Source: Chitinophaga pendula (GTDB lineage Bacteria > Bacteroidota > Bacteroidia > Chitinophagales > Chitinophagaceae). From it: a stretch of 64,000 bases of DNA. Below the pieces are notes generated by a model, which did no database searches, was not told the DNA's origin, and worked only from the letters and a program-made list of their open reading frames with translations. Each line of letters begins with the position of its first letter. The stretch's first letter is position 1. Below, one piece after another: positions 680 through 59,194 of the stretch. The stretch covers positions 1,426,001 through 1,490,000 of the forward strand of contig NZ_CP077769.1 of NCBI RefSeq assembly GCF_020386615.1. Reading direction: 5' to 3'. The position numbers and the translations under genes are program-made.

Positions 680-3600
680 ATGGAAAATATTTATTTCTCG
701 CTTAATCCCAGTCAAAGGGTTATTTATTTTGACCAGTTAATGGATATTAATAGTGTGCACTATAATATCGGTGGTTATCATGAATTTTCCGGTGATATTA
801 ATATATCCTATCTAAAAATGGCGATTAGGGCCGGAGTGCATGCGTTTGATGCACTTCAACTTTCATTTGAGCAAGGGGATGACGGAGAGGGAAGGTGTAA
901 GTTAATGCCGGTAGGAGAGGTGACGATCACAGAGGTAGATCTATCCGGTGACGCGGATGCGTTGAATAAAGGATATGAATGGTTGAAAGAACGAATGAAT
1001 GTTAGCTTTGATATTAGCCTGGGCGAGCTTTATGATTTTTCATTGATAAAGGTATCCGAGAAGAAATATTTCTTGCTAACTAAATTTCATCACCTGGTCT
1101 GTGACGGTATAGGGGTTGCTATTTTTAGCCAGTTTGTTTCAGATAGATATAATGCGCTGCTTAAGGGAGTCGCTCCGGCTCCTGTAACAACTACCTTTAG
1201 GTCTACAGTAGAAGCCTATGAGCTTTCTTTCGATGAATCACTCTACCAACAAGACAAGGTATATTGGCTGAAAGAGTTTGACAGGGAAAATAATGAATTC
1301 TTTGATGTTCGTTATCCACATGCGAAAGAAGCAAGTGAGAGTGTAGTTGTGCCTGTGGATAAATCCTTGCTAGGAAGATGTAACGAATTGATGAGCAACC
1401 ATAAAGTGAACCTGGCCCAGCTTACTATGGCCGCATTGAATGTACTGTATTACCATGCCTATGGTTGGCAGAACATCACTTACGGCTTGACGTCCCATAA
1501 CCGTAGGACCAGGCAGGAGAAAATAGCCTTCGGGACTTTTGCACAGATCTTTCCTTTCAGCTGCGCAGTAACAGATCCTTCTATAACAGTACATGAGCTA
1601 TTCGATAAGATAAAGGCAAAACAACGCGCAGACTACAGGCATCTGAATTATCCGATCGCGCAGATTAACCGGGATCTCAAACTATTTACAAAGAACAGAA
1701 GTCAGGTGTTTGATATAGCGGTGAGCTATAACGTCCTGGATGTGGTGGCTTCTATGAAAGATATTCAAGCCGCATTTTACGATATCTCAACGGAAAGTGA
1801 GCCTAATCCATTACATTTTTGGTGGAGGGTATATAGCGGTAAGCAGGATCTTGAACTGAGAATTGATTATCGGCCCAAATATTTTAGTGGCGAGGATGTA
1901 AGATTATTGACTGAAAGACTTTTCTTCATTTTTGATCAATTTTGTTCAGATGTTGAAAAATCAATGGAGAATATAGATGTCATCCCTCCCACAGAACGGA
2001 TAAAGTTGTTGAAAGGGTTCAATGATACTAAAAGGGATTATCCGGCAGATCAGACAGTGGTCAGCCTTTTTGCTAAACAGGCTAAGGAAACCCCGGATGC
2101 AGTGGCTTTACAGTTTCTGGATACATCTATTACCTACAGACTACTTGATGAGAGATCAAACAGTGTAGCACACTATCTGCGTAGTAAAGGTGTGAGGCAG
2201 GGAAGCTATGTACCCTTATTGATGGAAAGAGGTACTGATATGATAATTGCCATTTTGGGGGTGATGAAGGCTGGGGCTGCTTACGTCCCGATCGATATAA
2301 CTTATCCTCAGAATCGTATCGATTACATGGTGCAAGACTTGAATGCGGTATTGACTATGCGGGGCCTAGATAATGAGCTGCTCAATACTTTCCCTGAAAC
2401 TACATTGGAAGATCAGCCGGCACCAGCATCATTAGCTTATATTATTTATACTTCAGGGTCAACAGGTAATCCTAAGGGAGTAATGATAGAACACCGGGGT
2501 ATGTTGAACCACCTGTATGCGAAGATTAATGACCTTGGGATAGACAAGGATAGCAAAGTAGCATATACCGCTTCTTATACTTTCGATATATCTGTTTGGC
2601 AGATGTTTTCGGCATTGTTATGTGGCGGTCGTACTTGTATTTATGCGCAGGATGCCATTTTAGAGCCGGCCCGGCTTCTGACTTTATTTAGTCAAGATGC
2701 AATAACAATAGCGGAAGTAGTACCCTCTTATTTGTCTGCCATAGTGGACGTGCCAGAGGTGCAGCTGTTGAATGACCTGAAATATCTGTTAATTACAGGA
2801 GAAGCATTGCATGCGTGGCTGGTGAACAAATGGTTTGAGGTGGATAAAAAAGGTATAACACTGGTGAATGCCTACGGTCCGACCGAAGCTTCTGATGATA
2901 TCTGTCACTATTTCATCACAGGTCCGCTTGATACATCTCAGGTACCCATTGGTAGCCCCGTACAGAATACCAGGATCTATATTGTAAATGAGCATGGACA
3001 GTTATGTCCCATTGGTATTAATGGAGAACTATGCGTAGCCGGTATTGGCGTTGGTAGAGGCTATCTTAATCAAGACGAACTGACTGCATCCAAATTTGTA
3101 ATAGATCCATTTGACAGTCAAGGACTACAGCGAATGTATAAAACAGGCGACCTGGCCAGATGGCTTCCGGATGGCAATATTGAGTTCATTGGCCGGATGG
3201 ATGATCAGGTGAAGGTACGTGGATATAGAATTGAATTAGGTGAGATCGAACATGCTATATTAAATACTGCACTCGTTCGACAGGTAGTGGTACTTACCAA
3301 GGGAGACGTACATAAGCAGTTGGTGGGGTATGTGGTACCAGTTGCTGGTTATAGCAAGGAATTGTTATTCGGGTATTTAAGAGAGCAGCTAGCAGACTAT
3401 ATGTTGCCGGCTACGATAGTAGAGCTGGAAGAAATGCCTTTGACCACCAATGGAAAGATTAACAAAAAAGCATTGCCGGACCCGGAATGGAATGATAGTT
3501 TGCCTGACGAACAGATGGAACCACGGTCTGCATTGGAAGCGGTTATCATCAATGTCTGGCAGGAAATCTTAAAGGTACCCACCATCGGTATATATGATAA

Positions 3601-6600
3601 CCTGTTTAAACTGGGAGCGGATTCCATAATGGTAATCCAGTTTGCCAGCCGCATGAACAGGAAAGGATACAGCATCAGTCCGCAATCAGTATTTAAACAC
3701 CAACGGCCGGCTGATTTAGCAGACTATCTGAACAGTAATCAGCATGAACAAACCACCATAACAGCGGAGCAGGGCATCTTATCCGGTATTTCCGGATTAT
3801 TGCCTATACAGCATTGGTATCTGCAAGAAAAGGTACCGTCAGCTGTTACTAACCACTACAATCAGGCTATTTTTATAAACATCCCCCCATCCGTATCGGT
3901 TGAAGATATGCATACAATAGGGCGCTTGCTGCTCATCCAGCACGATGCGCTCCGTTTCCGGTATAGCTATACTGGAAACAATTGGAAACAGGAGTATAGT
4001 CCTGTTGACGCGAAAAAAAATTTGCTGTCAGCTATAAACTTGCAAGATACTCCTGCTGGAGATGTAAGGAATGTTATTAAGGCTGCTGCCAATGAATGTC
4101 AGCAGCGCCTCGATATTACTACTGGAGAAGTATTCCGGATGATACTTTTTACTGGTATTCCTTCCTGTCAGCAACATTTATTATTAATGGTAGGTCATCA
4201 CCTTGTTATAGATGGCGTCTCTTGGAGAATCATTGAGGAAGATATTGGTCTCTTGTTGCAACAACTAGAAAAAGGAGTATTACCGGAACAACAGCTATTG
4301 GGTACAAAATCTGCTTCCTATAAAGATTGGTACCAGGAATTGACTGCCTATGGTAAGTCCGAACAACTTTTGTCTCAAGTTGCTTACTGGGAAAACATTA
4401 CGAATGGATATCTTCCTTTGGTAGATGTAAATAGCGAAGTAGTGGGTAAAGTAGCAGATGGTGTGGAACTGAGACAATCATTATCGGCAAGATACACACA
4501 ACAACTATTACAAGAGGCAGGACAACGCTACAATACGGATGTCAATGACATACTGTTGTCAGCCTTGATGGTCACAATATTGAAATATAATGGAAGAAGG
4601 AAAGTCAACATCGGACTGGAGGGACATGGTCGTGAGCATTTAGTTGCATCCCTGGATATAAGTCGTACAGTGGGATGGTTCACCAATCTTTACCCTGTAA
4701 TGCTCGAATTACCGGAAGGGGAAGCCGAACTCAATTTAGCGCGCATTATTACGGAGATAAAAGAACAATTACGTGCGGTGCCGGATAAAGGGATGGGATA
4801 TGGTGTGTTAAGGTATATCAATAAAGAAGCAGCATTACAAACGGAGATACAGCCCTGGGATATAATATTTAACTATCTGGGATATTGGGAAGGAGTGTAC
4901 GACAGCGATGCTTGGCCTGTAGGGGATATGGTTGGGTTGGAGCAAAGAATGGCAGCACCATTAATATTGAATAGCGCTACATCGGGAGGTCAGTTGATAT
5001 TCAGTTTGAGTTATAATAGGTTACAATTCGAAGATCAGGCCATGGCGGCCTTTATGGCATCTTATCTTTCCGTACTGGAAGAGGTAATCGATCATTGTAC
5101 AGCCGCTGCAGGTATCTATGGCACTCCTTCTGACTATGGTTTACAAGGAGTGGCAACGGTAGGGCAGCTGAATGATTTTATGGAGGAGGAAGTGACCCCG
5201 GGCTTAAGGAGATATGAAGCCATAGAAGGGTTATACAGGTTAACGGGCCTCCAGGAAGGGCTATTGTTTCATAGCTTATACAAGGATTCAGCCGATGCCG
5301 ACTTGTACATTGAGAAGCAGGAACTGGAGCTGGAGAATGTAGACCCGGCAATATTTAGAAAGAGTTGGGAACATATTGTTGCGAACCATAGTATACTAAG
5401 GAGTTCTTTTTTTGCTGACCGGTTTAAAGTACCTGTACAATGTGTACAGAAAACTGTGACATTGAACTTTGAGTACGTGGAAAGTGAAGAGACGACGGCT
5501 ACGATCCCTTTATTTGATCTTTCAGTAGCACCACTGCTATTTTTGCGGCTGGTGAAATTAACTGATCGGACATACAAACTATACTGGACGCACCATCATA
5601 TATTACTGGATGGCTGGTCTATGCCACTGATTATAATGGAATTGCTGGCTACATACGAAAGCTTACTGAAAAGCGAAGTACGGGCTGTCGTAAGAACAGA
5701 TAATTATGGCGACTATATAAAATACCTGGAAAGACTTGATAGAAGAAATGAAAGAGCATATTGGAATAAATATGTTGCCGGAATTGAAGGTCCTACCTTA
5801 TTACCATTTATAGATAAAAAGGTATCCAGGAACAGAGGGGGTGAAAGCTATGGTAAAGTGGAGCTTAGAATAGAAGGGAAAGGTGCCCGGGACATAATAT
5901 CCTACGCCAGAAATAATGGAATTACATTCAATACCATTCTTCAAGCTGTCTGGAGCCTGTTACTGCATAGGTATACAGCGAATAAGGATATTGTATTTGG
6001 TGTTACAGTAGCAGGTCGTCCTGCAGACCTTTCAGATGTGGAAAGTCGTGTAGGACTTTATATCAATACCCTGCCATTCAGAAGCCAGATAGATTGGGAA
6101 ATAGGTGTAACTGATTGGCTGTTGCAACTGCAGTCTGCACACCAGGCTAGCCAGGAGTATCAATACACGCCATTAAGTGATATTCAATTAAGCAGTGGTG
6201 TAACCGATGATTGGTTCGATTCGCTGTTAGTATATGAGAATTATCCGATAGACTGGTCAGAAATAAAGGAGAAATGGCAGCTGAAAATTAAGGAAGTAAA
6301 AATAGAAGAACATACCAACTATCCCTTGACGATAGTAGCATATTCATCAGCAGGTGATATTCATCTGCAATTTAGCTACAACAGTCTTCTGTTAGAAGAA
6401 ACAAGGGTAACGCAGATAAGTAATGATTTTGCATGGTTATTACATCGTATTACCGCTGAAGGTACATCATCGCTTAAAGCATTATTCGATGAGCAGTATG
6501 GTGTTAATAGCAATAATGTATTCACGGAAGAGCTTCAGCAGGCGGGAGATGAGCTGACAGTACAGTGGAGACTGCAACAGAGCTTTGACACCAATAAGGA

Positions 6601-9600
6601 AAAACCGGCATTACACTACAAAGACAAGTTGTATACCTATGCTGATATTGACCATAGAGTTACCAGTATTGTAGCTGCACTGGAAAAACTTCAGTTACCG
6701 CAAGGTAGTGCTGTTGGTATATCATTTGAAGATCGTAGCTGGGTGATCTGCGCTATGTTGGCCGTGTTGAGAATACGTGGTGTATTCGTAATGCTGGAAC
6801 CGACATTGCCGGAAGGCAGATTGGCCGCTATGTTATCGCAGATAGATCTGAGCTGTGTATTGACAGATCAGGGAAACAGGCAGCTGTATGATGATAGCGT
6901 CAATTTCCTCAGTCCCGCCGATATTGACAGATATGCTGTACCAGGTATCCTACAGGAAAGAAACTATGATCCGTCAGATAATATCTACATATATTTCACT
7001 TCGGGAAGTACAGGTATTCCTAAGGGAGTGGTAGGTAAGAATAAAGGACTTTCTCATTTTATCAACTGGGAAATAACAACGTTTGGTATTGACAGTAGTT
7101 TCAGGATTAGCCAGTTCACGAACCCTGGATTCGATGTATTTATGAGGGATACCTTGGTGCCATTATGTGCAGGTGCCTGTATATATGTGCCTGAGGAAGA
7201 ACATTTACTTACTGGTAAGAAAGTGATGCACTGGATTGCAGATAGCCAGATTAATCTGATTCATTGTGTTCCAACTTTCTTCAAATTCTTTAATAAGAAT
7301 GTAGCAGAAACAGACTTAAAACATTTGAAGTACATACTGCTGGCGGGAGAAAAAACGATTCCGTTCGAACTGAAAGAATGGTATGAGACCGTAGGCAATG
7401 CTGTACAATTGGTTAATATTTACGGTCCTACGGAGACGACGTTGGCAAAAGGATATTTTCTAATTAATAACAAAGATATCGATAGAGGATTTATTCCTGT
7501 TAAAGCGATACCGGGAGCACAGTTTATGATCTTGGATGATCAGTTGAATAGTTGCCCGCAATACGTGGTCGGAGAAATCTATATCAGAACCCCATATCGC
7601 ACTGCCGGTTACCTCAAAAATAAACGGGTAGATCCAAGCCTGTTTATAACAAATCCGTATGCAAACAGAGAAGATGATCTGATATATAGAACTGGTGACC
7701 AGGGCCGTTGGCATGGCGATGGAGAATTGGAGATAATGGGTAGGATAGATAACCAGATAAAAATCAGGGGAATACGAATAGATCTGGATGATATCAGACA
7801 AAACATATTATCATATCCGGTATTAAGAGAAGTAGTACTTATCAGTAAAAAGGATGAGGAAGGAGAGGTCCATATTTATGCTTTCTTCGTAAGCGATGAT
7901 AAAGTTGAAGTCACAGTACTGCGAGCATATCTAGATAAGATCCTGCCCAGGAATATGATGCCTGCATACTTTATCCAGCTGGATGCAATACCATTGTTAC
8001 CTAATGGTAAGACAGACAGAAGGGCATTAATGGAGTATCAGATACCCACTGTAGGCGATGTTCCGCTAGCGGTCATGACTCCTGCAGAGACAAAACTTGT
8101 GAACGTCTGGGCATCAATATTGAAAATAGATGTGGGTACTATAGATATTAATAAGAGTTTCTTTGAAGCAGGAGGTCATTCCTTAAAAGTGTTCCACCTG
8201 ATAAATGAGATCCAGGAGAGCTTCAGCGTAAAGCTAAAATTGGGAGAAATATTTCAGAATGCTTCCGTAAAGAAACTTGCTGCACTCATCACTTCGTTGG
8301 GGGAGACCACTGTTGAGCATATAATTCGGATAGCTGACAGAGAATATTATCCAGCCTCACCGGCGCAGGAGCGAATGTATTATCAACACACGCTACATGA
8401 AAATAATACTGATTTTAATATCACATTGCCGTTCCTGATAGAAGAGAATATAGATTTGTCAATGTTGGAAAAGACCTTACAGCAACTGGTTGAAAGACAT
8501 GAAGGGCTGAGGACCGGTTTCTTCCTGCAAGAAAACGGTGTGGTACAAAAAATATTTGAAGAGGTAACACTTGGCTTGGAGGTACTTTCCGAAAAAAATG
8601 TTAGCGAGGCATTGCGACAATTTGCCCGTCCCTTTGATCTGTCTGTTCCCCCATTAATTAGAAGTGGGTGGCTAAAGGACCAGGAAGGGAGGTCATTCTT
8701 GTTATTAGATGTTCACCATATTGTCGCAGATGGATCTTCCCTGGAGATATTAATGAAGGATCTGTATAAGCTTTATAACAAACAGTCAATAATCCAGTTA
8801 CCGGTTCGATATGTTGATTATGCACATTGGGTAAAGAACAATGGAGATACGTTGGAAAAACAACGTCAATACTGGAAAAATAGTTTGTCTGGTGAACTAC
8901 CTCAGCTTGAACTACCGGTATCTGGTAATATTTACGAAATAGAGCGATATGTATGTACTGAAAAGATACTCTCTGTTACTGGAGATATTTACAGTAAGAT
9001 AAAAGCAAAAGCGGCAGCTTGTGAGGTTTCCGAGTTTATGCTGTTTTTATCCGCCTATTATATTATGTTATCCCGCATGTCTGGTAGTGAGGATATTATT
9101 ATAGGCACAGATGTTATTGGCCGTACCCATCACGATCTGAAAGAGGTAGTTGGCACTTTTATAAATGTATTGCCGCTCAGAATACAGGTTACTGCAGATG
9201 AGCAGTATACAGATTTTCTGTTGGCGGTGAAAAGTTTAGTACTGAATGCTTACGAAAACCAGGATCTGCAATTCGATCAGATTGTCAATATGCTCGGTGA
9301 GCACGCTAGGAGATCAGCGAACCCGATTTTTGATGTACACTTCGCCTATACAGCGGCGGCGGAGGAAATTGATGTTGCCTCAAAAGCCGGCTTAAAATAC
9401 CTGGTATTGGACAAGGAGCACATAAGCAGCCAGTATCCATTTAAATTGGAAGCATTTGCCTATCAGAAGAGGGTTGATATTTCTTTTGTATATGACAACA
9501 GATTGTTTGAAGAAGACACGATCGAGTTATTGAAAGAATATTTCTATAACATTCTTACGGCAATATTACATAATGAATCTATCCTTGTAGGAGACATAAA

Positions 9601-9637: not shown

Positions 9638-9648
9638 AAACATATCAT

Positions 9649-11505: not shown

Positions 11506-11524
11506 CCCCACATATGATACAACC

Positions 11525-14500: not shown

Positions 14501-14656
14501 TATTTCATGCCCGCAGATATGAAAGTGCTTGCTGGCATTTTTAAAGACCTCATATTTAAGGTGAGCAATGATACAAATGCCACCATATCGTCATTTATTA
14601 CTGAAAGTGCCATAGGTACTTTGCTGGATGCAGAGGATATTTCATTCAACTTTTAA
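11525..14656 (+). CDS. NRPS, A-PCP-C (A-PCP of module 3 plus the C of module 4)
   Basis: About 1043 residues. A domain 1-490 (A3 TSGTTGLPKG near 156, NGK lysine near 500); PCP with GGNS at Ser551; C domain about 601-1035 with HHIICDG from His731. The A domain starts at the very N terminus with no C before it, so it must be served by the C domain ending the protein at 680-9637. Specificity residues by eye are DARHLSLMIK, from the same unusual A subgroup (Arg at 239, His at 278) as A2 of the first synthetase; substrate unassigned. The ATG at 11525 is preferred as start. A TTG at 11498 would overlap asnB by 8 bp and add nine residues with no domain content. No epimerase or thioesterase is present. 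Confidence 0.93.
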   Translation: MTFQHKLNECLQANPHNIAIRQDGSEITYAGIVSVTRRITNFLLRELSEELIPVGVFCTDRIEIITAAIGICNARCIFVPLDPNWPAKRLERIFDDLNLRYVITADESGYLDNIGEEAELTRFVWKDIVATASSEDAYTVEYPKYDPNDSLYIYFTSGTTGLPKGIVGKNASLLHFLDWEISAFGIDKPLNFSQFISPYFDAFLRDVFVPLFTGGTICIPTYEGQLFPAEQLSGWVNKCNIGFIHCVPSLFRTINTEELTADDYSSLKYVLLSGEKIIPGELKNWYKVFGSRIQLVNLYGATETTMIRSFYRILPADAEKAKIPVGKPISDTDLLILTSDFKVCSTLMPGDLYVVSAYMSKGYLNNSELTNSRFFSVNIAGRGETAVFKTGDKARKLADGNIDLIGREDRQVKLRGIRVELDAVEYLLCQSPFIQNAVVVKEEAGDTEFLKAFVVIKDKTLSGDIYSLLNSHLSEEVPDYMIPSELRVVDEFPLLGNGKIDIKALQNIKSVSTVEPPANHTEQKVLLIWKELLGDKELSVLDEFLRVGGNSIAIMSLIAKISKEFGVKIALSDVFKNMTVRRQADFIRSAAKDSDMQISKAIEKEYYNTSSSQARMYYNHKLNPGDRAYNLPMAVELIGLCEVDRLQHVIRALVNRHESLRTIFRLERGVLMQQIAENVEINIEELAFEDQDVDNIVASFIRPFDLDGHPLFRCALACGKGGRKVFVIDIHHIICDGLSQVILEMDFLRIYNREILPVLDYQYKDYAAWEFKYRQSENYKELRSYWINMFKDEVPRLQLPSLGNTTEMLQEGGEIMFEIEKSVINKISDKVCTGNTTLSSMLLSLYYIYLYKITGKKDIVIGVATSGRIQYQVENVVGMFVKTLPIRLEVNADVNYKEWLTDLHTTLVSAFDRQLCDLTDVISDLNSTGGMPVINLFETMFTFQNFEKEGVFAHNDYFREYHIATPAPKFPLSLIITEQGNVFSFRIEYSFSYFMPADMKVLAGIFKDLIFKVSNDTNATISSFITESAIGTLLDAEDISFNF

Positions 14657-14749
14657 TGGGGATGAATACTTCGAATGCTTATTGGACTGAAGCAACCCCT
14701 CATTTTCTATCCGGCCAATCCGACAATCACTAATCTTCAACTGTGAAGA

Positions 14750-17368: not shown

Positions 17369-17377
17369 GTACAACAG

Positions 17378-38675: not shown

Positions 38676-38695
38676 TAAATACAATTTCCTTATAC

Positions 38696-46303: not shown

Positions 46304-46313
46304 AGAGTTCTAT

Positions 46314-49300: not shown

Positions 49301-52300
49301 TGCCGATTATACCTCCTTGTGTTACAGTGTATCTAACCTGGCAATCACCTGGCAGCATTGCAGCCAGGAGTTGGTGTTGCTGACAGAGGAAGGAGAGCTG
49401 ATACGTGGGGATGAGTCAGGCGACGCATATAGCAGTTTAGGTCAGAGCCTGTTGAAAGTCATCGGTCAGGAGTATCCAGGACTTCGTACCCAACAAATAG
49501 ATATCAGTTATTCGGGAGTATCTGTAGAATGGCTGGAAGAATGTGTTTGCCGTGAGTTATCGGCCGTTCGCCGGGGCTCGGTGATCGGTTTGCGTCGGGG
49601 TCAACGCTGGCAACAGCATTACGATGCTTTGCGGCTAGATCGGGAAGGTAGTGTTTTCCGTGACGGAGGTGTTTACCTGATTACGGGAGGTTTGGGTCAG
49701 CTGGGTTATACGTTGTCTAAATACCTGCTGAGTCGTTATCAGGCTAAGTTGATCCTGGTAGGCCGCAACAGAAAGTTGAGCGGTGACAAACAAACACGTT
49801 ATGAAGAATTGTGCAGCTTAGGAGTGGTTCGTTATGTCGCCTGTGATATCTCCGATGCCGGTCAATTGAAGGCAGCATTGGTGTCGTCAGAGGAACAACT
49901 GGGTACCATCAATGGTGTTATTCATGCCGCAGGAGTGGTGGACGGTCGTTCCATAGGTTTATTACCGGAGTTGAGTACTGGTGACTATATGCATCAGTTC
50001 GATCCCAAGATCAGCGGTCTTCATGCCTTGTGGCAGGTATTGGCTGATCGTGCACTGGACTTCTGTGTGCTGACCTCCTCGATATCGACGGTATTGGGCG
50101 GTTTAGGTTTTGGTGCGTATGCGACCGCCAATCGTTATATGGACCAGTTTGTACAACGGGAAGTAGGGTCTGGCCGTTTACAACGCTGGCTAAGTGTCAG
50201 CCTGGATGGACTAGATTTTACAGCAGACAATAAGACGGAAGAGATTACCCGTGCGGAGATAAGTGAGATGATGGAAATAGTACTAAGCCATCGCGGTTTA
50301 TCGCACGTGGTAGTATCAAAGACTCCTTTGCAGGGACGGTTGGAGCAATGGGTGACTGGAACAATAGACAACGGTGAGCAAGAAGAAGTAATAAATAAAC
50401 ATCTTGTTTTTGAGAAAACAGCGTCTGGCGTAAGCAAACAACTGCAGACAATGTGGGAGGGTTTCTTCGGTAAAGCTGATTTAGGCGGCTCAGCAGACTT
50501 CTTCGAGATAGGTGGCGATTCTCTGAAGGCGCTGACGATGTTATCGCGGATACACAAGACTTTTGGTGTAGATATGTCCATCCGTGATTTCTATGATCAT
50601 CCGGTATTGTCGACACAGAGTCTTTTTATCTATAACCGTTTAGAAACGACTTCAAGTAATAAACAAACAACAGGTCGTAGCATAACGATCCCTTCAGCAG
50701 GTGGGGCGGGCTTATATGCCTTGTCGGCAGCACAGCGGCGGATGTACTTTTTACATGCCTTTGACAAAGCGGCGCTGACCTATAATATGCCGCATGTGAT
50801 CCGGTTGGAAGGCACGTTGGATGCAGAACGGCTACGTACTTGTTTTGAACAGCTGATAGCGCGCCATGAAATACTGCGTACAAGTTTCGAGTTGCATGAA
50901 GGCGAAGTAAAACAGCGGGTCCATGAAACGATCGCAGGCTTTGAATGGACGATTTACGAGAGTGATGCAGCAGGAGTATCCTCCCTGGTAGATCAGTTTA
51001 TCCGTCCATTTGACCTGGGACAAGCACCTTTGTTGCGTGCAGGGCTGATCCGTATCGGAGAAGCAGCACATGTGTTGCTGGTAGATATGCACCACGTAGT
51101 AACTGATGGGGTATCTACAGATATCCTGGTCAATGACTTTAGTTCACTTTATCGCGGAGCTGAATTACCAGCGCTGCACTTACAATATAAAGATTATGCA
51201 CAATGGCAGCAGAGTGCGGCAGAGCAGGTACGCATATCGGCGCAGCGTGCATTCTGGAAAAAGCAATACAACATACTCCCCGATCCGCTGAACCTGCCTG
51301 TAGACTTTACTCGTCCCATAGTTAAAAGTTCGGAAGGGGCAGTGTCGATGAACGAACTATCCACTGACCTGACTACAAAATTGAGAGCACTGGCAGAGCG
51401 GGAAAGGGTATCAATGTTTATGTTGTTACTTTCCATCTATCATGTGTTACTGAGTAAACTCAGTAATCAGGAAGACATTGTAATCGGTACACCGACAGCC
51501 GGTCGCTTACATGCAGATCTGGAAGGCGTAATGGGGATGTTCGTGAATACTTTACCCTTACGTAATGCCGCTGCCGGAGAAGATACCTTCAGCTCGTTCT
51601 TACAACGGATAAAAGAAAATACATTATCCTGTTTTGATAATCAGGAGTACCAGTATGAAGATATGATCGAAGCACTGGAAGTAGCGCGCGATATGGGACG
51701 TAATCCATTGTTCGACGTGATGTTCAGTTATGAGAATTTTGAAGATCCGGATTTACAGCTGGAAGGATTGAAACTCACTACTTATGATCGTAATTATACT
51801 GCTTCCAAATTCGATATGACCCTTATCGCAAGTGAGGGAGAAGAAAAGATATACATCAATTTTGAATATAGTACAGCCCTGTTCAAACCGGCAACGATTG
51901 AAAGGTTTGTCGGTTATTTTAAACAGATAGCAGCTACTGTTATTGAACAGATTGATATTCAGATGAGCCAGATCAGTGTATTGGGAGAGGAGGAACGTCA
52001 ACAGCTACTAACTGGCTTTAATGACACAGGCCTTGTGTATCCAACGGATAAGAGTCTCCTGGCATTATTTGATCAGTTAGCGCTACAAACACCGGATAAA
52101 GCCGCCTTGCGGTTTGAAGAAGAAGTAATGACCTATGGTGAGTTAAAAACGCTGTCTGATAACATTGCTTTATACTTCAGAGACGAACTGCAACTGGCAA
52201 AAGGAGGCTTAGTAGGTGTGATGACGGCCTATGATCTGAATTTTATTCCTCTTTTATATGGTTTACTAAAAGCTGGTGGAGTGTATGTTCCTATTGACCC

Positions 52301-55300
52301 GCAACATCCGGTGGCAAGGATAAATACGATTGCTTCCGATGCTGGCCTGTCATTGGTAATTAAACACAGGGAAGATAAGATTGAGCTGACAGGAGAGATA
52401 CAGGTACTGAATATAGAAGACCTTGCCGTTGCTGTTACCGGTCCTAAAGAAGGCGCTTTGTCTTATACATTGTCACTGGAAGATCTTGCTTATGTAATTT
52501 ATACATCTGGGTCAACCGGTGAACCTAAAGGGGTGATGATAGAACACGGCTCTTTGTTGAATATTATTCATGCACTTCAGGCAAAATACCCGCTTACTAG
52601 TCAGGATAGTTTCCTGCTTAAGACTGCATTTTCATTTGACGTATCTATAGCAGAGCTTTTTGGTTGGTTTATGGAGGGAGGCAGTCTCTGTATTCTGGAT
52701 CCTGTTCATAAGACGGATATGCGGGAAGTCGTGGCAGCTATTAAACGATTTAAAGCTACTCATATCAACTTTGTTCCGTCCGTATTTGCGGCTTTTGTGG
52801 ATACGTTGAAGGAAATAGGTACAGAAAATATTACAAGCCTGAAATATATTTTCCTCGCAGGAGAGGCATTGAGCGAAAACCTTGTGAATGATTTCAGGAA
52901 ATTCGGGAGAGACATTAAGCTGGAAAATATATATGGACCGACCGAAGGGACCGTATATAGCAGTGCCTATTCTCTGGCAGATCTGCAGGAAGGCATGAAA
53001 ATGTCTATCGGTAAGCCTATCAGTAATGTAAGGTTATATATCCTTGACAAGTATGGTGCTTTACAGCCTGTTGGGGTTCCTGGTGAATTGTGTATTGGAG
53101 GAGCAGGTGTGGCGAGAGGCTACCTTAATAATATATCATTAACAGCGGAGAAATTTATCCCCAATCCCTATGTGCCAATGGAGCGGATCTATCGCACAGG
53201 AGACCTCACTCGCTGGTTAGAGGATGGGAATATTGAATACCTGGGGCGTATAGATGACCAGGTTAAATTAAGAGGGCTCCGTATCGAATTGGGAGAAATT
53301 GCCGTACAGCTGGGAGCGCATCCTGCTATCGCACAGAGTGTGGTAGTTGTGAAAGAAAGAGCAGCAGATAAATATATAGTTGCATATTATATAAGTGACA
53401 GGGTAATTTCACCTGTTGAGTTGAGAATATTCCTTCGGAATAAGCTCCCCGATTATATGATACCATCGTTCTTCGTGCACCTGGAGCAATTCCCATTGAC
53501 TAGTAGTGGTAAGGTGGATAAAAAGGCGCTTCCGCTTCCGGAACTGAAGGTAGAGGTGGATTATAAAGCACCGGAAGGGCAGGTCGAAGAAAAACTGGTC
53601 GAAATATGGGCGAGCGTATTGCAAGTAGATCCACAGGTTATCAGCGTACACAGGAACTTTTTTGAATTGGGCGGTAATTCACTCAAAATAGTTTCTCTCA
53701 ATCAGCTGATTAATAAGGCCTTTAACTGTAATATTACTACGGCTGACATGTTTGGGCTGACGACTATCCGGGATATGAAACAGTTTATCCTCGGGACAAA
53801 TACGCAGCTACAGACTAAACAAACATATAAGTCCACGTATCCTGCAGGAGATAAGGGAACAGCAATAGCTATTGTTGGCCTTGATGGTCGGTTCCCGGGT
53901 GCGAATGATATCAGCCATTTTTGGGATAACCTGATGTCAGGTGTTGAATCTATTTCGTTCTTCAGTCAGGAAGAATTATTGGAAGCAGGAGAAGATGCAC
54001 ATTTACTGAGTGATCCTGCTTATGTAAAAGCCAATGCTTATGTAGACAAGAAAGAATTTTTCGATGCCAGCTTTTTTGGTTATCAGGCTGCTGAAGCTCG
54101 CTTAATGGACCCTCAAATGCGTCTGTTCCATGAAGTATGCTGGACTGCATTGGAAAATGCAGGATATGGCAAACTTGATCAGCATTCAAAAATAGGTTTA
54201 TTCGCATCGGCTGCATCGAATCCTAATTGGGAAGTATATGCAATGCTTAAAAATGAAGAAGAAAGCATAGATGATTTTAGTGCTTCACATTTACGGGATA
54301 TTAGTTTTCTGACTACTAAGATCTCTTATAAGCTTAATCTCAAAGGGCCGGCTATATTTGTTCAATCCGCTTGTTCTTCTTCCCTTATGGCTGTACACCA
54401 GGCCTGCCGGAGTTTGCTCGCTGGCGATTGTACCATGGCACTGGCAGGCGGCATCGCAATAAAGAATATATCGAAAACCGGATATCTGCATCAAGAAGGG
54501 ATGATACATTCCGCAGATGGACACTGCCGGGCTTTTGATGCAGCCGCGACAGGTACGGTAGATGGAGAAGGTGCCGGTGTGGTGCTGTTAAAAAGGTTAG
54601 ATGATGCTGTACGGGATGGCGACCATATTTATGCGGTGATTCGGGGTACGGGCATTAACAATGATGGTAATGATAAGGTAGGATATACCGCACCATCTAT
54701 CAATGGGCAGCGCGAGGCAATCGATATGGCATATGCAAGTGCAGGTGTCGAGCCGTCAACCATTGGCTATATTGAAGCACATGGTACAGGTACCAAACTG
54801 GGAGATCCTGTAGAGATCGCCGGTCTGACAAGGGCTTTTAATACAGAAAAGAAACAATTCTGCGCAATCGGCTCTGTAAAATCTAACATCGGCCACCTGG
54901 ATACGGCTGCCGGGGTAGCGGGTCTGATCAAGGCCGTGTTGTCACTGCAACATGGCCAGCTGGTGCCCAGTCTGCACTACCAGCAACCCAATCCGGAGAT
55001 CGACTTTGCTAACAGTCCTTTTTATGTAAATACAACATTGCGTCCCTGGGAACGTAATGGTCATCCCCGTCGGGCAGGCGTGAGTGCTTTTGGTATAGGT
55101 GGTACAAATGTGCATGTGGTGTTGGAAGAAGCACCTGGGCGCGACACCGGCAGTACCGGTCGCAGCCATCAGTTGCTGCTGCTGTCCGGTAAAACGCCAG
55201 GGGCGCTGGAGCGTAATGCTGCCCGCTTGTCGGCGTACCTGCAACAGGATACCACCACCTCCTTAAATGATATTGCCTATACGCAACAGGTAGGACGTGA

Positions 55301-58262
55301 AGCCTTCCAGTATCGTCGGATGCTGGTCTGCCGAAATCGTTCCGAAGCGTTGGCATTGTTGAATACCCCTGGCTGGCTGTCGGCAGGGAGTCATTATATT
55401 TCGGACAAACGTACAGTAGGTGTTGCCTTTCTGTTCCCTGGCCAGGGATCTCAATATAGCGGGATGTGCCAGGGGCTGTATGAAGAAGAGCCGCATTTCC
55501 GTAGTACAGTAGATGAGTGTTTGTCTATTGTCCAACGCCGTTGTGGCAAAGACCTGCGTCCGGTATTATTTGGTGCAGATGCCCGTATGGATCAGACAGA
55601 ATATACCCAACCCTGTCTGTTCATCATAGAATATAGCCTAGCTCGTTTGCTGATGAGCTGGGGCGTTCAGCCCTCTATGATGATCGGTCACAGTATCGGA
55701 GAATATGTGGCTGCTTGTGTGAGTGGTGTATTTAGCTTATCAGATGCATTGTACCTGGTAGTAAAACGGGGAGAATGTATGCAGGCTGCACCTACAGGTA
55801 AGATGCTGAGTGTGTCATTGGATCGTGAAGGGTTGCTGGCATTGTGTGGAGTGGATATCTGCCTGGCGGCAGTCAATGGCCCTTCTTCGGGTGTATTGTC
55901 CGGCAGAGAGTCTTCGATAGCAGCATTAAAACTACAATTAGAATCATCGGGTCATGTTTGCCGGGAGTTACGTACCTCACATGGCTTCCATTCACACCTG
56001 ATGGATGAGGTGTTACCCGCTTTCCGTGGCTGTTTTTCGGGTATTACCTTCCATACACCCTCCCTGCCATTTATTTCAAATGTGACGGGTAAGGAAGCCT
56101 TGGCCGATGAGATCTGCCAGGCTGACTACTGGGTGAACCATTTACGTTCGACCGTAGACTTTTCAGGTGGCTTGTCTACGTTGCTATCCACCAGCAGTAC
56201 GTCTGTTTTACTGGAAGTAGGTCCAGGCAAGGTGTTGAGTACTTTATGCAGTATGGCCGGACAGGAGGGTATTCCCCTGGTTCGTGGAGCACGTGATACG
56301 GGAGCTGATGGTCATTACCTGTTAACCGGTTTGGGTCAGTTATGGGAGCGAGGCGTAAGTATCAACTGGCGGGATTATTATGGTAATGAGCGTCGCTTGA
56401 AGGTGCCTTTACCAGGTTATAGTTTTGAGCAGGTGAAATATCCGGTACATGTGGATGCTTATCAGCTATTACAACAACAGTTGGGATCAGGTACTTTGTC
56501 AGATAAGGGCCGTAAGCTATCCGATTGGTTCTATGTACCCGGGTGGCGTCAGTCAGTACGAGGACTAAATCAGGACGTACAGACTGACCGACAGATATTA
56601 GTATTCTGCGATAAAAAAGGTTTTGGTGCCCGCTTGTCTGCCCGTTTGGGTGCACAGGGCCATCAGGTAGTAGAAGTATATAGAGGAACAGCCTTTAATA
56701 AGCGGGATACGCATACTTATGAAATAGACGCCACTCTTACGGAAAGCTATCAGCAGTTGGCAGCTGCTTTAAACTCAGAAGGTTTTAAGCCCAACCAGCT
56801 ATTGCATGTATGGTCTATGGACAATAAAGGAGGGGCAGATTATACATCATTATGTTACAGCCTGGCCACTATGGCAAGTACCTGGCAGCATTGTAGTCAG
56901 GAGTTGGTATTGCTGACAGAGGAAGGAGAGCTGATACGCGGAGATGAGTCAGGTGATGCATATAGTAGCTTAGGTCAAAGTTTGCTGAAGGTAATAGGTC
57001 AGGAGTATCCTGGTCTTCGTACCCAACATATAGATATTAGTCAATTGGGCATATCCGAGGCCACATTGGAAATGTCTGTTTGCCGTGAACTGTCGGCTAT
57101 TCGTAGTGGTACGGTGATCGGCCTGAGGAGAGGCAAGCGCTGGCAGCAGCATTACGACGCGTTGTCACTGGAGCGGGAGGGTAGTGTTTTCCGTCAGGGA
57201 GGTGTTTACCTAATCACAGGTGGTTTAGGCCAATTAGGTTATACATTGTCTAAATACCTGCTGACGCGTTATAAAGCCAGATTGGTACTTGTAGGCCGTA
57301 ATGCGATGTTAGATGGCGACAGGCAAACTCGTTATGAGGAATTACGGAACCTGGGAGCAGTGCGCTACGTAGCCTGTGATATCTCCGATGCCGGTCAGTT
57401 GAAAGCAGCATTGGTATTGTCAGAAGAACAATTGGGTACCATAAACGGTGTTATTCATACCGCTGGTGTCATAGAAGGTCGTTCCATCGGGCTGTTACCA
57501 GAGCTGAACACCGCCGACTATATGCATCAGTTCAATCCTAAGATCAACGGTTTGCAATCATTATCGGTAGTACTTGCCGGTCGTGCACTGGACTTTTGCC
57601 TCTTAACTTCCTCTATATCTACTGTATTGGGTGGCGTAGGTTATGGCGCTTACGCAACAGCGAACCGCTATATGGATCAGTTCGTGCAACGGGAAGTAGC
57701 CGCGGGACGTTTGGAACATTGGGTAAGTGTAGGCTTGGACGGATTGGAATTCAAAGAGCACTCCAGCGATCAGGATATCACAGGTGCCGAGTTATGCGAA
57801 GTATTGGAATTAATACTCAGTAACCGCGATTTACCACATGTAGTAGTGTCAAAAACAGCATTAGATACACGTTTGAAGAAATGGGTGGAGAAGGGGAATG
57901 ATTTGCCGAAACAGGAGCCGGTAATAGAAGCGGTAGTGAGTAATGTAGAAACGGTAAAGTCAGCACCGGTTAATCCGATACCAGGTGTTAATCCCCGCTT
58001 CCTTGGCAATGAATATGTGGCTCCTCGTAATGAACTGGATAGCAAGTTGACGGATATATGGAAAGAAATATTTAGTGTTGATAGTGTCGGTATAGATGAC
58101 AACTTCTTTGCACTGGGAGGACATTCGCTTAACGTCTTCCAGATGTTGAATAGGATCAGAAAACTTGATTATCAGATACACTTTAGAGACATGTATGATT
58201 ACCAGACTATTGAAAAACTATCCGACTATCTCATGAAACAAAAGAAGAAACCTGTTAGATAG
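46314..58262 (+). CDS. Hybrid PKS-NRPS, KS-AT-KR-ACP-C-A-PCP-KS-AT-KR-PCP-like (terminal synthase)
   Basis: 3982 residues. First PKS: KS Cys178, AT Ser618, KR Tyr1269, ACP GGDS Ser1403. C (HHVVTDG, His1593), A (A3 near 2065), PCP GGNS Ser2456. Second PKS: KS from about 2515 (SACSSS, Cys2687), AT Ser3127 (GHSIGEY, HGFHS), KR Tyr3780 in YATAN, carrier GGHS Ser3938. The A code DVANFAIVYK is unassigned; Asn278, Ala301 and Tyr331 recall alanine-type codes, so a small aliphatic residue is a weak guess. The last carrier follows a longer, Val/Pro-containing linker and looks like a PCP rather than the GGDS ACPs of the other PKS modules. No thioesterase, reductase or terminal C domain follows, so release must come from a separate protein, most simply the one starting 29 bp downstream. 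The N-terminal residues are the same as in the protein at 31119. Confidence 0.95.
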   Translation: MSEYTGFEIAIIGMAGKFPGADDIHSFWNNLKEGVESVEFFSREEVLEEGETATVIDNPAYVKANAYLKGKEFFDASFFGYLPPEAELMDPQMRLFHEICWAALEDAGCNPNTPGNKIGLFAGATPNVNWEVYAALKNEEGLMDDYSALQLSNTRFLATRIAYVLNLKGWTMSVDTACSTSLVAVHQACRSLLVGDCTVALAGGVTVHNESKRGYLYQEGMIHSVDGHCRTFDAAASGTVGGEGAGVVVLKKLKNAIKDGDHIYAVIRGTGINNDGSDKVGYTTPSIDGQMEAIMTAHKWAKIEADTIDYIEAHGTGTKLGDPVEIAGLTRAFNTEKKQFCAIGSVKSNIGHLDTAAGVAGLIKAVLSLQHGQLVPSLHYQQPNPEIDFANSPFYVNTTLRPWERNGHPRRAGVSAFGIGGTNVHVVLEEAPGRDTGSTGRSHQLLLLSGKTPGALERNAARLSAYLQQDTTTSLNDIAYTQQVGRESFYYRRMLVCRNRSEALALLNTPGWLSAGSHYISDKRTVGVAFLFPGQGSQYSGMCQGLYEEEPHFRSTVDECLSIVQRRCGKDLRPVLFGEDARMDQTEYTQPCLFIIEYSLARLLMSWGVQPSMMIGHSIGEYVAACVSGVFSLSDALYLVVKRGECMQAAPTGKMLSVSLDREGLLALCGVDICLAAVNGPSSGVLSGRESSIAALKLQLESSGHVCRELRTSHGFHSHLMDEVLPAFRGCFSGITFHTPSLPFISNVTGKEALADEICQADYWVNHLRSTVDFSGGLSTLLSTSSTSVLLEVGPGKVLSTLCSMAGQEGIPLVRGARDTGADGHYLLTGLGQLWERGVSINWRDYYGNERRLKVPLPGYSFEQVKYPVHVDAYQLLQQQLGSGTLSDKGRKLSDWFYVPGWRQSVVGTAATATRQILLLSDAGGFGARLSARLRSQGHEVVEVYQGSGFSSLSVDVYEIDGGVAGDFSQLASILSSGGFKPTQLLHLWSMDRKSAADYTSLCYSVSNLAITWQHCSQELVLLTEEGELIRGDESGDAYSSLGQSLLKVIGQEYPGLRTQQIDISYSGVSVEWLEECVCRELSAVRRGSVIGLRRGQRWQQHYDALRLDREGSVFRDGGVYLITGGLGQLGYTLSKYLLSRYQAKLILVGRNRKLSGDKQTRYEELCSLGVVRYVACDISDAGQLKAALVSSEEQLGTINGVIHAAGVVDGRSIGLLPELSTGDYMHQFDPKISGLHALWQVLADRALDFCVLTSSISTVLGGLGFGAYATANRYMDQFVQREVGSGRLQRWLSVSLDGLDFTADNKTEEITRAEISEMMEIVLSHRGLSHVVVSKTPLQGRLEQWVTGTIDNGEQEEVINKHLVFEKTASGVSKQLQTMWEGFFGKADLGGSADFFEIGGDSLKALTMLSRIHKTFGVDMSIRDFYDHPVLSTQSLFIYNRLETTSSNKQTTGRSITIPSAGGAGLYALSAAQRRMYFLHAFDKAALTYNMPHVIRLEGTLDAERLRTCFEQLIARHEILRTSFELHEGEVKQRVHETIAGFEWTIYESDAAGVSSLVDQFIRPFDLGQAPLLRAGLIRIGEAAHVLLVDMHHVVTDGVSTDILVNDFSSLYRGAELPALHLQYKDYAQWQQSAAEQVRISAQRAFWKKQYNILPDPLNLPVDFTRPIVKSSEGAVSMNELSTDLTTKLRALAERERVSMFMLLLSIYHVLLSKLSNQEDIVIGTPTAGRLHADLEGVMGMFVNTLPLRNAAAGEDTFSSFLQRIKENTLSCFDNQEYQYEDMIEALEVARDMGRNPLFDVMFSYENFEDPDLQLEGLKLTTYDRNYTASKFDMTLIASEGEEKIYINFEYSTALFKPATIERFVGYFKQIAATVIEQIDIQMSQISVLGEEERQQLLTGFNDTGLVYPTDKSLLALFDQLALQTPDKAALRFEEEVMTYGELKTLSDNIALYFRDELQLAKGGLVGVMTAYDLNFIPLLYGLLKAGGVYVPIDPQHPVARINTIASDAGLSLVIKHREDKIELTGEIQVLNIEDLAVAVTGPKEGALSYTLSLEDLAYVIYTSGSTGEPKGVMIEHGSLLNIIHALQAKYPLTSQDSFLLKTAFSFDVSIAELFGWFMEGGSLCILDPVHKTDMREVVAAIKRFKATHINFVPSVFAAFVDTLKEIGTENITSLKYIFLAGEALSENLVNDFRKFGRDIKLENIYGPTEGTVYSSAYSLADLQEGMKMSIGKPISNVRLYILDKYGALQPVGVPGELCIGGAGVARGYLNNISLTAEKFIPNPYVPMERIYRTGDLTRWLEDGNIEYLGRIDDQVKLRGLRIELGEIAVQLGAHPAIAQSVVVVKERAADKYIVAYYISDRVISPVELRIFLRNKLPDYMIPSFFVHLEQFPLTSSGKVDKKALPLPELKVEVDYKAPEGQVEEKLVEIWASVLQVDPQVISVHRNFFELGGNSLKIVSLNQLINKAFNCNITTADMFGLTTIRDMKQFILGTNTQLQTKQTYKSTYPAGDKGTAIAIVGLDGRFPGANDISHFWDNLMSGVESISFFSQEELLEAGEDAHLLSDPAYVKANAYVDKKEFFDASFFGYQAAEARLMDPQMRLFHEVCWTALENAGYGKLDQHSKIGLFASAASNPNWEVYAMLKNEEESIDDFSASHLRDISFLTTKISYKLNLKGPAIFVQSACSSSLMAVHQACRSLLAGDCTMALAGGIAIKNISKTGYLHQEGMIHSADGHCRAFDAAATGTVDGEGAGVVLLKRLDDAVRDGDHIYAVIRGTGINNDGNDKVGYTAPSINGQREAIDMAYASAGVEPSTIGYIEAHGTGTKLGDPVEIAGLTRAFNTEKKQFCAIGSVKSNIGHLDTAAGVAGLIKAVLSLQHGQLVPSLHYQQPNPEIDFANSPFYVNTTLRPWERNGHPRRAGVSAFGIGGTNVHVVLEEAPGRDTGSTGRSHQLLLLSGKTPGALERNAARLSAYLQQDTTTSLNDIAYTQQVGREAFQYRRMLVCRNRSEALALLNTPGWLSAGSHYISDKRTVGVAFLFPGQGSQYSGMCQGLYEEEPHFRSTVDECLSIVQRRCGKDLRPVLFGADARMDQTEYTQPCLFIIEYSLARLLMSWGVQPSMMIGHSIGEYVAACVSGVFSLSDALYLVVKRGECMQAAPTGKMLSVSLDREGLLALCGVDICLAAVNGPSSGVLSGRESSIAALKLQLESSGHVCRELRTSHGFHSHLMDEVLPAFRGCFSGITFHTPSLPFISNVTGKEALADEICQADYWVNHLRSTVDFSGGLSTLLSTSSTSVLLEVGPGKVLSTLCSMAGQEGIPLVRGARDTGADGHYLLTGLGQLWERGVSINWRDYYGNERRLKVPLPGYSFEQVKYPVHVDAYQLLQQQLGSGTLSDKGRKLSDWFYVPGWRQSVRGLNQDVQTDRQILVFCDKKGFGARLSARLGAQGHQVVEVYRGTAFNKRDTHTYEIDATLTESYQQLAAALNSEGFKPNQLLHVWSMDNKGGADYTSLCYSLATMASTWQHCSQELVLLTEEGELIRGDESGDAYSSLGQSLLKVIGQEYPGLRTQHIDISQLGISEATLEMSVCRELSAIRSGTVIGLRRGKRWQQHYDALSLEREGSVFRQGGVYLITGGLGQLGYTLSKYLLTRYKARLVLVGRNAMLDGDRQTRYEELRNLGAVRYVACDISDAGQLKAALVLSEEQLGTINGVIHTAGVIEGRSIGLLPELNTADYMHQFNPKINGLQSLSVVLAGRALDFCLLTSSISTVLGGVGYGAYATANRYMDQFVQREVAAGRLEHWVSVGLDGLEFKEHSSDQDITGAELCEVLELILSNRDLPHVVVSKTALDTRLKKWVEKGNDLPKQEPVIEAVVSNVETVKSAPVNPIPGVNPRFLGNEYVAPRNELDSKLTDIWKEIFSVDSVGIDDNFFALGGHSLNVFQMLNRIRKLDYQIHFRDMYDYQTIEKLSDYLMKQKKKPVR
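47280..50210 (+). repeat. PKS repeat block, copy 3 (KS C-half - AT - KR)
   Basis: About 2931 bp almost identical to 32085-35015 (offset 15195), only a handful of substitutions seen. Identity stops at the end of the KR; the KR-ACP linker and ACP that follow are diverged. Confidence 0.93.
50687..51227 (+). repeat. C-domain N-lobe repeat, copy 2
   Basis: Second copy of the C-domain N-lobe at 35489-36029. It is separated from the upstream PKS repeat block (ending at 50210) by a diverged KR-ACP linker and ACP, so the two identity tracts are distinct events or the remains of one event later overwritten. Confidence 0.87.
54822..56554 (+). repeat. PKS repeat block, copy 4 (KS C-half - AT only)
   Basis: About 1733 bp almost identical to 47295-49027 (offset 7527). 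Identity ends at the entry to the structural KR (WRQSV); the KR of this last PKS module is a recognisable but clearly diverged homologue. Confidence 0.92.
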
Positions 58263-58291
58263 CCCTTCTTTATTCAAAAAACTACTGGTTG

Positions 58292-59194
58292 ATGATAACC
58301 CTGAATGAAGTAAACGAAAAACCTGTACGGTTAACACTTATGCCACTTGTTATTAATAAAGCCAGGAACAACCATTTATATGTATTGAATATCAAGCGGG
58401 GAAGCTGGCCACTATTTATCATACCTGGTATCGGAGGGAAAAATGACCGGTTCCGCATGTTTGGCAACATCTTTAGAGAGATATGTACAGTGTACGGTCT
58501 CGAAATGATGGGCACACAACGGGATGAAATTCCATTAAGAAGTATTGAAGCGATTGCGGCACAGAATATCTTATGGATAAAGGAAGTACAACCGGAAGGA
58601 CCTTATCGTTTGCTGGGATATTCTTATGGCGCAAACATCCTCTACGAAATGGTATGCCAGCTTGAAGCTGCAGGAGAGTTAGTCGATTTTGCGGCAGTAT
58701 TAGACCAGCCGGTTGGTGAACTGGAGGGGCTTGATCCGGAACTCAGCAAATTGGATCTGGTACAGGAGCTGTTACAAATATCCAGGGATTACTATGAAAG
58801 TTTTCGCATCCCCTTCCCTGAATGGGGAGCAGCACTTGAAAACAACCTGGCCGCTTTAGATCTGGAGACATTAGTAATGGGGATCGCAGATTTTGTAAGA
58901 CAGGAGTGGCCACGAAAGTGGAATAGCATCGCCTACGTCTCCAGATTGATCAATATCAGGTTGTACAATAGCAGTATCGTTTACAGCCCGTCTGTAAAGA
59001 TTAACTCAGAGATCATTGTTTTTAATGCTAAAAGCATCAATCAGGATATTGCCGACGATACACTAGGTTGGGCGGCATATGCCGACAACGTAAGAAGCAT
59101 TATTGTACCAGGAAACCATCACAGTATCGTTTGGGGAAACAACGTCCTCGAAGTATCCAGACATCTGAGAGATCGCATCAACATGAGCCGTTAA
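58292..59194 (+). CDS. Discrete thioesterase (alpha/beta hydrolase), probable chain release or editing
   Basis: About 300 residues with the alpha/beta-hydrolase layout of NRPS/PKS thioesterase domains. Oxyanion-side motif FIIPGIGG near residue 35, nucleophile elbow GYSYGA with Ser111, likely acid in the LDQP strand near 141, and His276 in PGNHHS near the C terminus. It resembles the C-terminal TE domains of synthetases (GPYRLLGYSYGA) more than typical type II enzymes, although it is a separate protein. As the last synthase has no TE, the best inference is that this protein hydrolyses or cyclises the finished chain; editing of mis-primed carriers is the alternative. The ATG at 58292 is preferred; a TTG directly before it gives one more residue. 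It begins 29 bp after the terminal synthase, so it is surely in the same unit. Confidence 0.88.
   Translation: MITLNEVNEKPVRLTLMPLVINKARNNHLYVLNIKRGSWPLFIIPGIGGKNDRFRMFGNIFREICTVYGLEMMGTQRDEIPLRSIEAIAAQNILWIKEVQPEGPYRLLGYSYGANILYEMVCQLEAAGELVDFAAVLDQPVGELEGLDPELSKLDLVQELLQISRDYYESFRIPFPEWGAALENNLAALDLETLVMGIADFVRQEWPRKWNSIAYVSRLINIRLYNSSIVYSPSVKINSEIIVFNAKSINQDIADDTLGWAAYADNVRSIIVPGNHHSIVWGNNVLEVSRHLRDRINMSR

Follow-up and report, generated by a model that had tools for sequence, protein, structure and literature searches.

The assembly line and its predicted peptide

The window studied here is a stretch of 64,000 bases from the genome of Chitinophaga pendula (C1:1426001-1490000 of a single contig of 7,663,439 bases; 111 matches to condensation (C) domains genome-wide). 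It carries a hybrid nonribosomal peptide synthetase (NRPS) and polyketide synthase (PKS) assembly line, and just upstream of it lies a gene that fuses a peptidase to an exporter and in which the peptidase has lost its active-site residues. Papers are cited by accession, and relatives are given by genome number.

The seven NRPS/PKS genes all lie on the + strand and encode ten adenylation (A) domains, five modules of ketosynthase, acyltransferase, ketoreductase and acyl carrier protein (KS-AT-KR-ACP), and a single epimerisation (E) domain. The layout was obtained with local profiles made from the window's own domains and checked with Pfam; some peptidyl carrier proteins (PCP) were masked by the overlapping A profile and were recovered as Ser motifs or from Pfam counts. 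The first gene (680..9637) encodes a starter-type C, A1, PCP, E, C, A2, PCP and C; its E domain (3779..5098, motif HHLVIDGVSWR), placed after the A1 module, is the only one of the line. It is followed by AsnB, a glutamine-hydrolysing asparagine synthase (9649..11505, + strand; NCBIfam TIGR01536, 461 bits, cut-off 267.1), and by two further NRPS genes, one with A3, PCP and C (11498..14656) and one with the C-terminal part of a C domain, A4 and PCP (14750..17368). The partial C domain is a remnant (profile 189-333 of 456; 33.5 bits against a Pfam cut-off of 30.6), and the complete C domain preceding A4 is the one at the end of the gene before. With the exception of this remnant, the C, A, KS, AT and KR domains score far over the Pfam cut-offs, and the calls are therefore not due to chance. 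The line continues with KS-AT-KR-ACP and three C-A-PCP modules (A5 to A7; 17378..31108), KS-AT-KR-ACP and C-A-PCP (A8; 31119..38675), a KS-AT-KR-ACP of separate ancestry and C-A-PCP (A9; 38696..46303), and KS-AT-KR-ACP, C-A-PCP (A10) and a last KS-AT-KR-ACP (46314..58262). A standalone thioesterase (58289..59194, + strand; Pfam PF00975; relatives at 42-48%) is presumed to be the release enzyme.

In all five PKS modules, the KS Cys and both His, the AT motif GHSIGEY and the Ser/Tyr stretch of the KR are present. The second AT motif is HGFH in four modules and HAFH in one, and we take the AT motifs, by the usual rules, to fit malonyl. Pfam finds KR in the four PKS-bearing proteins and no DH, ER-domain or methyltransferase family there, nor any methyltransferase family in the scanned NRPS/PKS proteins; families of short-chain dehydrogenases, including one called enoyl reductase (PF13561), match weakly, and on the KR stretches. 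No clear LDD or Trp signature of KR stereochemistry was seen by eye in the stretches inspected. Across the AT block (alignment columns 1501-2700), four of the five modules are 98-100% identical in DNA, yet only 58-81% over the first 900 KS columns, and the fifth is 44-64% identical to the other four throughout. Gene conversion of the AT, with the KS kept apart, would fit this pattern. Between A5 and A6, 15 of 1524 bases are different. With C-A-PCP and KS-AT-ACP modules lying colinear in a single set of genes and their active-site motifs in place, this is a hybrid type I NRPS-PKS line, and the 15 modules (ten A, five KS-AT-KR) that a first-pass annotation had counted, colinear on one strand, with intact motifs and without DH or ER, are borne out. 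The cluster runs beyond the extent it gave, 680-59194, at both sides: ahead of the line are an SbnA gene and the peptidase-exporter, and beyond 64000 are genes for an S12 hydrolase and a racemase.

Residue codes were read at the places equivalent to GrsA 235-331, with Lys517 assumed and with the usual position rules. A1 and A4 share DIWELTADDK, and A7 has DIWEMTADDK; A5, A6 and A9 have DLTKIGEVGK, A2 DVRHLAILAK, A3 DARHLSLMIK, A8 DVWHFSLVDK and A10 DVANFAIVYK. As a yardstick, we used a line of 14 A domains in Chitinophaga eiseniae (G028, C24:546559-600660) with an SbnA gene just ahead, which we identify as the chitinopeptin A/B cluster; its coordinates are absent from the text of the chitinopeptin paper that we consulted. 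Its codes, with the usual assignments, run Val, Thr, Ser-like, Asp, Phe, Ile, Ser, Lys, DIWELTADDK, Leu, Asp, Leu, Asp and Ile, and E domains follow positions 2, 3, 6, 8 and probably 10. The chitinopeptins contain one 2,3-diaminopropionate (Dap), at position 9 and bound to Lys, two Leu and three beta-hydroxy-Asp among their residues, with D configuration at Thr, Ala, Ile, Lys and Leu10 (PMC9248904). A1 and A4 match the code of this Dap module exactly and A7 at nine of ten places. Yardstick and paper differ at two points (a Ser-like code at position 3 where Ala is expected; the second Leu at 13 in the paper and at 12 by codes), on which the Dap assignment does not depend since the line has one such code and the product one Dap.

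The SbnA-type 2,3-diaminopropionate biosynthesis enzyme is encoded immediately ahead of the line: its gene begins 377 bases before the window, and the C-terminal part occupies 1..603 on the + strand (NCBIfam TIGR03945, 390.1 bits, cut-off 349.95; best PDB match SbnA, 5d84). SbnB is found elsewhere in the genome (345.1 bits, cut-off 326.9). The published chitinopeptin clusters, four in number, have sbnA/sbnB homologues, with sbnB missing in C. eiseniae, and two SbnA matches in G028 fall where the C. eiseniae sbnA/B genes were placed (PMC9248904). A diaminobutyrate-type aminotransferase-like gene is present in the G044, G048 and G028 clusters and not in this one (only the G044 copy was scanned); the best match here to the diaminobutyrate-aminotransferase family has 213 bits, as against 394.9 for the G044 enzyme (cut-off 401.6). 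On this comparison and the chitinopeptin yardstick, we prefer Dap to diaminobutyrate (Dab), which the code had first suggested for residues 1, 4 and 7 and which is a possible second choice.

Among solved structures, A10 is closest to the second A domain of linear gramicidin synthetase A (469 bits), which we take to activate Gly, and A10 is hence read as Gly-like. DLTKIGEVGK is given for Asn/beta-cyanoalanine (PMC12283262) and is also the code that precedes E in clusters with a live D-Asn-type peptidase; the code of A8 is one letter from a Ser code in the same paper. A2 resembles DPRHLALLAK (eight of ten; predicted 2-aminoadipate, zeamine, PMC3547906) and A3 resembles DPRHVSLLAK (six of ten; quoted for Asn, PMC12283262), and residues 2 and 3 are left unassigned. 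Taken in order, the predicted product is D-Dap-X2-X3-Dap-mal-Asn-Asn-Dap-mal-Ser-mal-Asn-mal-Gly?-mal. The first-pass annotation had proposed this order, with a D residue first (an E follows it), Asn at three places, Ser at one and five malonyl-type units with ketoreduction, and all of this is supported. Where it left X1, X4, X7 and X10 blank, we now read Dap (exact code at the first two, nine of ten places at X7) and a Gly-like residue; what it missed is the relation to prodrug families, the signs of which lie beyond the window.

The peptidase-exporter and the cap module

The peptidase-exporter gene (C1:1422525-1425602), outside the window and directly upstream of the SbnA gene, encodes an S12 peptidase, three transmembrane (TM) helices and an ABC exporter. 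Full-length ClbP is its top PDB match in sequence (E 1.4e-31; residues 32-462, TM helices included), and the predicted fold is also closest to ClbP (mean pLDDT 82.7, TM-score 0.76-0.83, with low model confidence around 141-160, 241-250 and 271-300). The ABC half scores above the cut-off of TIGR01194, the family of cyclic peptide export ABC transporters (354 bits, cut-off 286.2). At E<=1e-80, C. pendula has this one gene, and 15 of 79 Chitinophaga genomes are matched, 12 (C. pendula included) with peptidase and exporter and three with exporter only. Of the features of the D-Asn prodrug peptidases (ClbP/XcnG/ZmaM), the protein has the S12 domain, the three TM helices and the TM-linker residues W460 and W466, which are kept in all 12 Chitinophaga proteins. 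It lacks the catalytic SxxK Ser and Lys, the Tyr and the D-Asn-binding residues: in ClbP numbering, Ser95 is A, Lys98 is G, Tyr186 is P and Ser/Thr188 is K, all in an intact frame, and position 331, Asn in relatives, is G or T by aligner (G in the ClbP alignment). Work on ClbP found that the N331A change abolished activity and that S188A severely impaired it, N331 being strictly conserved across peptidases of this kind (PMC9889268). Ser95, Lys98, Tyr186, Thr188 and Asn331 are kept in all 11 other Chitinophaga homologues. Among 47 database homologues, two of which are the same proteins as those of G028 and G048, Ser95 is found in 46, and Lys98, Tyr186, Asn331 and a Thr or Ser at 188 in every one.

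In a tree of the peptidase plus TM part, the C. pendula branch (1.79) is the longest terminal branch (next 1.21), while in a tree of the ABC part it measures 0.59, inside the range of the others; by branch length, the fast change thus falls on the peptidase and TM part and spares the ABC part. Among eight Chitinophaga proteins, the mean identity of the C. pendula peptidase to the other seven is 31.1%, as against 46.7-52.5% for the others, and the corresponding values for the ABC part are 51.7% and 53.4-61.2%. The midpoint-rooted ABC tree nests the C. pendula protein among live homologues (nodes 0.90, 0.85). Given this nesting, and since Lys98, Tyr186 and Asn331 are intact in every other sequence, loss of the active-site residues would most simply be a derived state.

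A module with an Asn code (DLTK[IV]GEVGK) followed by E is found in all nine readable relatives (G044, G048, G067, G037, G008, G066, G057, G013 and G046); the E domain of G048 was scored as C by the profiles and settled as E by its motif HHLVVDGVTWR. The gene carrying this Asn-E module opens, in seven of the nine, with either an acyl-ligase-like domain (weak A-profile matches, 28-82 bits; G044, G048, G067, G037, G008 and G013) or a starter-type C (G046). C. pendula lacks the layout expected of an N-acyl-D-Asn prodrug cluster, a line that opens with an Asn module and E; its sole E follows the Dap-coded A1. In a tree of C and E domains, the first C of C. pendula falls beside the starter C of G046 (0.92). 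The C. pendula E joins the final domain encoded by the neighbouring gene at 77715 (0.975), and these two join an E from inside a G008 line (0.978); the C that comes next in C. pendula pairs with an internal C of G008 (0.992). These groupings suggest that the front end was rebuilt rather than altered by a single A-domain swap.

Proposed fate of the prodrug step

We consider it probable that the D-Asn prodrug step has been lost here, peptidase and cap module together, and that a complete-looking line for a cationic peptide descends from Chitinophaga clusters predicted to make capped precursors. In the ancestral clusters, an N-acyl-D-Asn-capped precursor would have been trimmed during export by a ClbP/ZmaM-type peptidase fused to the exporter. 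In the C. pendula lineage, the Asn-E start would have gone, leaving a starter-C/Dap/E module first, and the peptidase residues would have been lost with the exporter half kept. The starter C would join an acyl group to Dap, the E would convert this Dap to D, and the chain would then be extended in the order given above with five ketoreduced malonyl units (beta-hydroxy C2 extensions). The predicted peptide is cationic, with three Dap, three Asn, one Ser, probably one Gly and two unassigned residues; the standalone thioesterase would release it and the ABC half would export it. As the Asn-E start is absent and the peptidase residues are lost, the N-terminal acyl-D-Dap end is most likely kept in the final product.

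Several observations weigh against this reading. A single dead lineage is known, and the link between cap and peptidase therefore rests on one event. In G066 and G057, the start of the line falls outside the covered stretch and the Asn-E module is not shown to be first, and two of the 11 relatives are unreadable at the NRPS start, namely G028 (contig end) and G004, where the gene beside the exporter is cut and shows part of an A domain, a C and a further A whose code is unreadable. Some supports are low in both exporter trees, and the peptidase tree places the C. pendula protein with 0.32. In one database homologue (P0175), position 95 is Ala and the remaining key residues are intact. Position 92 is Q in C. 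pendula and E in nine of the 11 other Chitinophaga homologues, but Q also occurs in two of the 11 and in 12 of the 47 database homologues, so that this position is uninformative. The Dap code is one letter from DIWEITADDK, which in G044 is paired with the diaminobutyrate-type aminotransferase, and the A7 code is one letter from both; by code alone, Dab is therefore possible. SbnA also adjoins the Asn-E gene in G037 and is thus not special to the present cluster. Finally, the product could still be trimmed by a separate, conserved S12 hydrolase whose SxxK motif is intact.

This hydrolase (65329-67212, outside the window) is conserved in G044, G048 and G028 (42-43%) and raises an alternative in which the prodrug step was re-aimed, the acyl-D-Dap cap being removed by the hydrolase or by another peptidase; starter C, A and E do have the layout of a cap module, as in G046. 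In those three relatives, however, the hydrolase coexists with a live peptidase-exporter and hence probably has another job, and we regard re-aiming as unlikely. A decaying cluster that makes nothing, with the dead peptidase as one sign of a dying pathway, might be read from the missing catalytic residues of that one domain, the C remnant in 14750-17368 and the YGATE variant that A3 carries. We think this improbable: the frames are open, the KS, AT, KR, PCP and C motifs are present, a similar weak C remnant (12 bits) stands at the equivalent place in G044, and four PKS modules look homogenised, not eroded. That the line makes a statine-type hybrid peptide with no prodrug history (a history on which the first-pass annotation made no claim) is very hard to credit, for although five KS-AT-KR modules after aminoacyl modules do yield statine-like units, the locus has a peptidase-exporter homologue and the gene set common to live-peptidase clusters (AsnB, A3 module, thioesterase, racemase, S12 hydrolase, NusG-like protein and response regulator).

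As to the peptidase domain itself, we offer, tentatively, that with its predicted fold and its membrane-linker tryptophans retained it may now be a pseudo-enzyme, a non-cleaving receptor or gate for the acyl-D-Dap end that serves the exporter. The cluster would then have shifted from prodrug protection to export of a mature lipopeptide, with the producer protected otherwise.

Related clusters, neighbouring genes and significance

Paenilamicin from Paenibacillus larvae is, like the predicted product, a cationic linear NRPS-PKS aminopolyol peptide with Dap-derived residues, and PamJ of that system is similar to an exporter that bears a D-Asn peptidase (PMC9054821). A D-Asn prodrug has been proposed for it; the present system differs in its dead peptidase, in having no E after any Asn module, and in the residues and their order. 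The core of paenilamicin/galantin-type peptides comprises galantinic acid, N-methyl-Dap and a spermidine end, and the NRPS/PKS proteins scanned here contain no methyltransferase family. ClbP homologues also serve zwittermicin (ZmaM) and edeine, and inhibitor and mass spectrometry data support the removal of N-acyl-D-Asn in these systems (PMC9889270); unlike the present one, they have a working peptidase and a D-Asn cap, and their products are others. ClbP of the colibactin pathway, the best match of residues 32-462 in sequence and fold, has a three-helix membrane part and no ABC half, while the present protein has lost the catalytic and D-Asn-binding residues. The chitinopeptins of C. eiseniae and Chitinophaga flava come from the same genus and share the identical Dap code, and the C. 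eiseniae cluster has SbnA without SbnB (PMC9248904); they are, however, cyclic lipodepsipeptides, and no KS-AT-KR is present in the C. eiseniae stretch read. By analogy of its parts, the cluster is nearer to paenilamicin/edeine/zwittermicin-type peptides than to pure statine peptides.

Within the genus, G044, G048 (Chitinophaga rhizophila), G028 (C. eiseniae), G067, G008 and G037 all have the peptidase-exporter; they differ from C. pendula in that the peptidase is live in all six, in the Asn-E start of the five readable ones and in other residues. Both G044 and G048 have counterparts of AsnB (63-65%), of the A3 module (42-43%), of the S12 hydrolase (42%), of the racemase (47-51%) and of a glucan-synthase homologue (39-42%), and G044 additionally has a NusG-like protein (46%) and a response regulator (51%). 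G028, whose contig starts inside the cluster, shares the hydrolase, the racemase and the glucan-synthase homologue. Thioesterase matches occur in 44 of 119 genomes; those among the best that are standalone and of similar size are in G044 (48%), G048 (43%), G028 (42%) and G023 (40%). A much closer thioesterase, 92% alike, is encoded on a member of a contig cluster in which the longest contig has 288,513 bases. G023 was rejected as a relative, its NRPS being of another kind; by eye, an NRPS near the G023 locus begins like a trehalose-phosphate synthase. Asparagine synthase was dropped as a cluster marker because it is too common (7999 scored candidates). We note that AsnB lies directly ahead of an A-PCP-C protein with the code DARHLSL[ML][IV]K in the window (9649-14656), G044, G048, G067 and G008, while G066 and G057 have the code DARHLSLMIK with no AsnB in the covered stretch; AsnB may make or amidate the substrate of this module.

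The gene after the thioesterase encodes a cyclic beta-1,2-glucan synthase homologue of 2042 residues (59204..64000, running to 65332, + strand; PDB match NdvB 8rf0, 863 bits). It stands beside the thioesterase in all five loci viewed (the window, G044 C3:1147644, G048 C15:797670, G028 C24:8322 and G023 C4:345658) and is found in ten of 79 genomes of the genus, with further loci in G051, G050, G012 and G034 outside the viewed set. Of the 12 genomes with the peptidase-exporter, five have this homologue (in G046 on another contig) and seven have none. Also outside the window are an Asp/Glu-racemase family protein (67281-68069; 47-52% in three relatives) and a second hybrid NRPS-PKS gene (77715-96773; 6352 residues) with an acyl-ligase-like domain, KS-AT and C-A repeats. 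On the other side, at C1:1413799-1421477 (12201 to 4523 bases ahead of the window), a NusG-like protein is followed by a two-module NRPS with a thioesterase, which sits between the regulators here and not in G044; its first code, DAQDLGVVDK, is that of Glu/Gln (PMC12283262).

A contig scan for the cluster, which detects close relatives only, gave a single match, a Microcystis contig at 39%, and a plasmid search gave 11 records each covering only 1-5% of the query. Literature searches found no title or abstract opening on a dead peptidase in such an exporter or on the present cluster, and none on Chitinophaga, prodrugs and NRPS together. No known compound with a matching module order appeared in these searches or in the consulted text of one paper on Chitinophaga products, and within this scope the first-pass annotation's failure to match the order to a known compound stands.

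If the reading is true, C. pendula would be a natural case in which a prodrug resistance step has dropped out of a pathway of antibiotic type that otherwise looks complete. That the cap module and the peptidase are gone together would fit the two halves evolving as one unit, and it would pose the question of how a producer survives its own product without the cap. The reading would also supply a Dap code for Chitinophaga that is tied to a product family solved by NMR, with which the predicted mass of the peptide could be narrowed ahead of chemistry.

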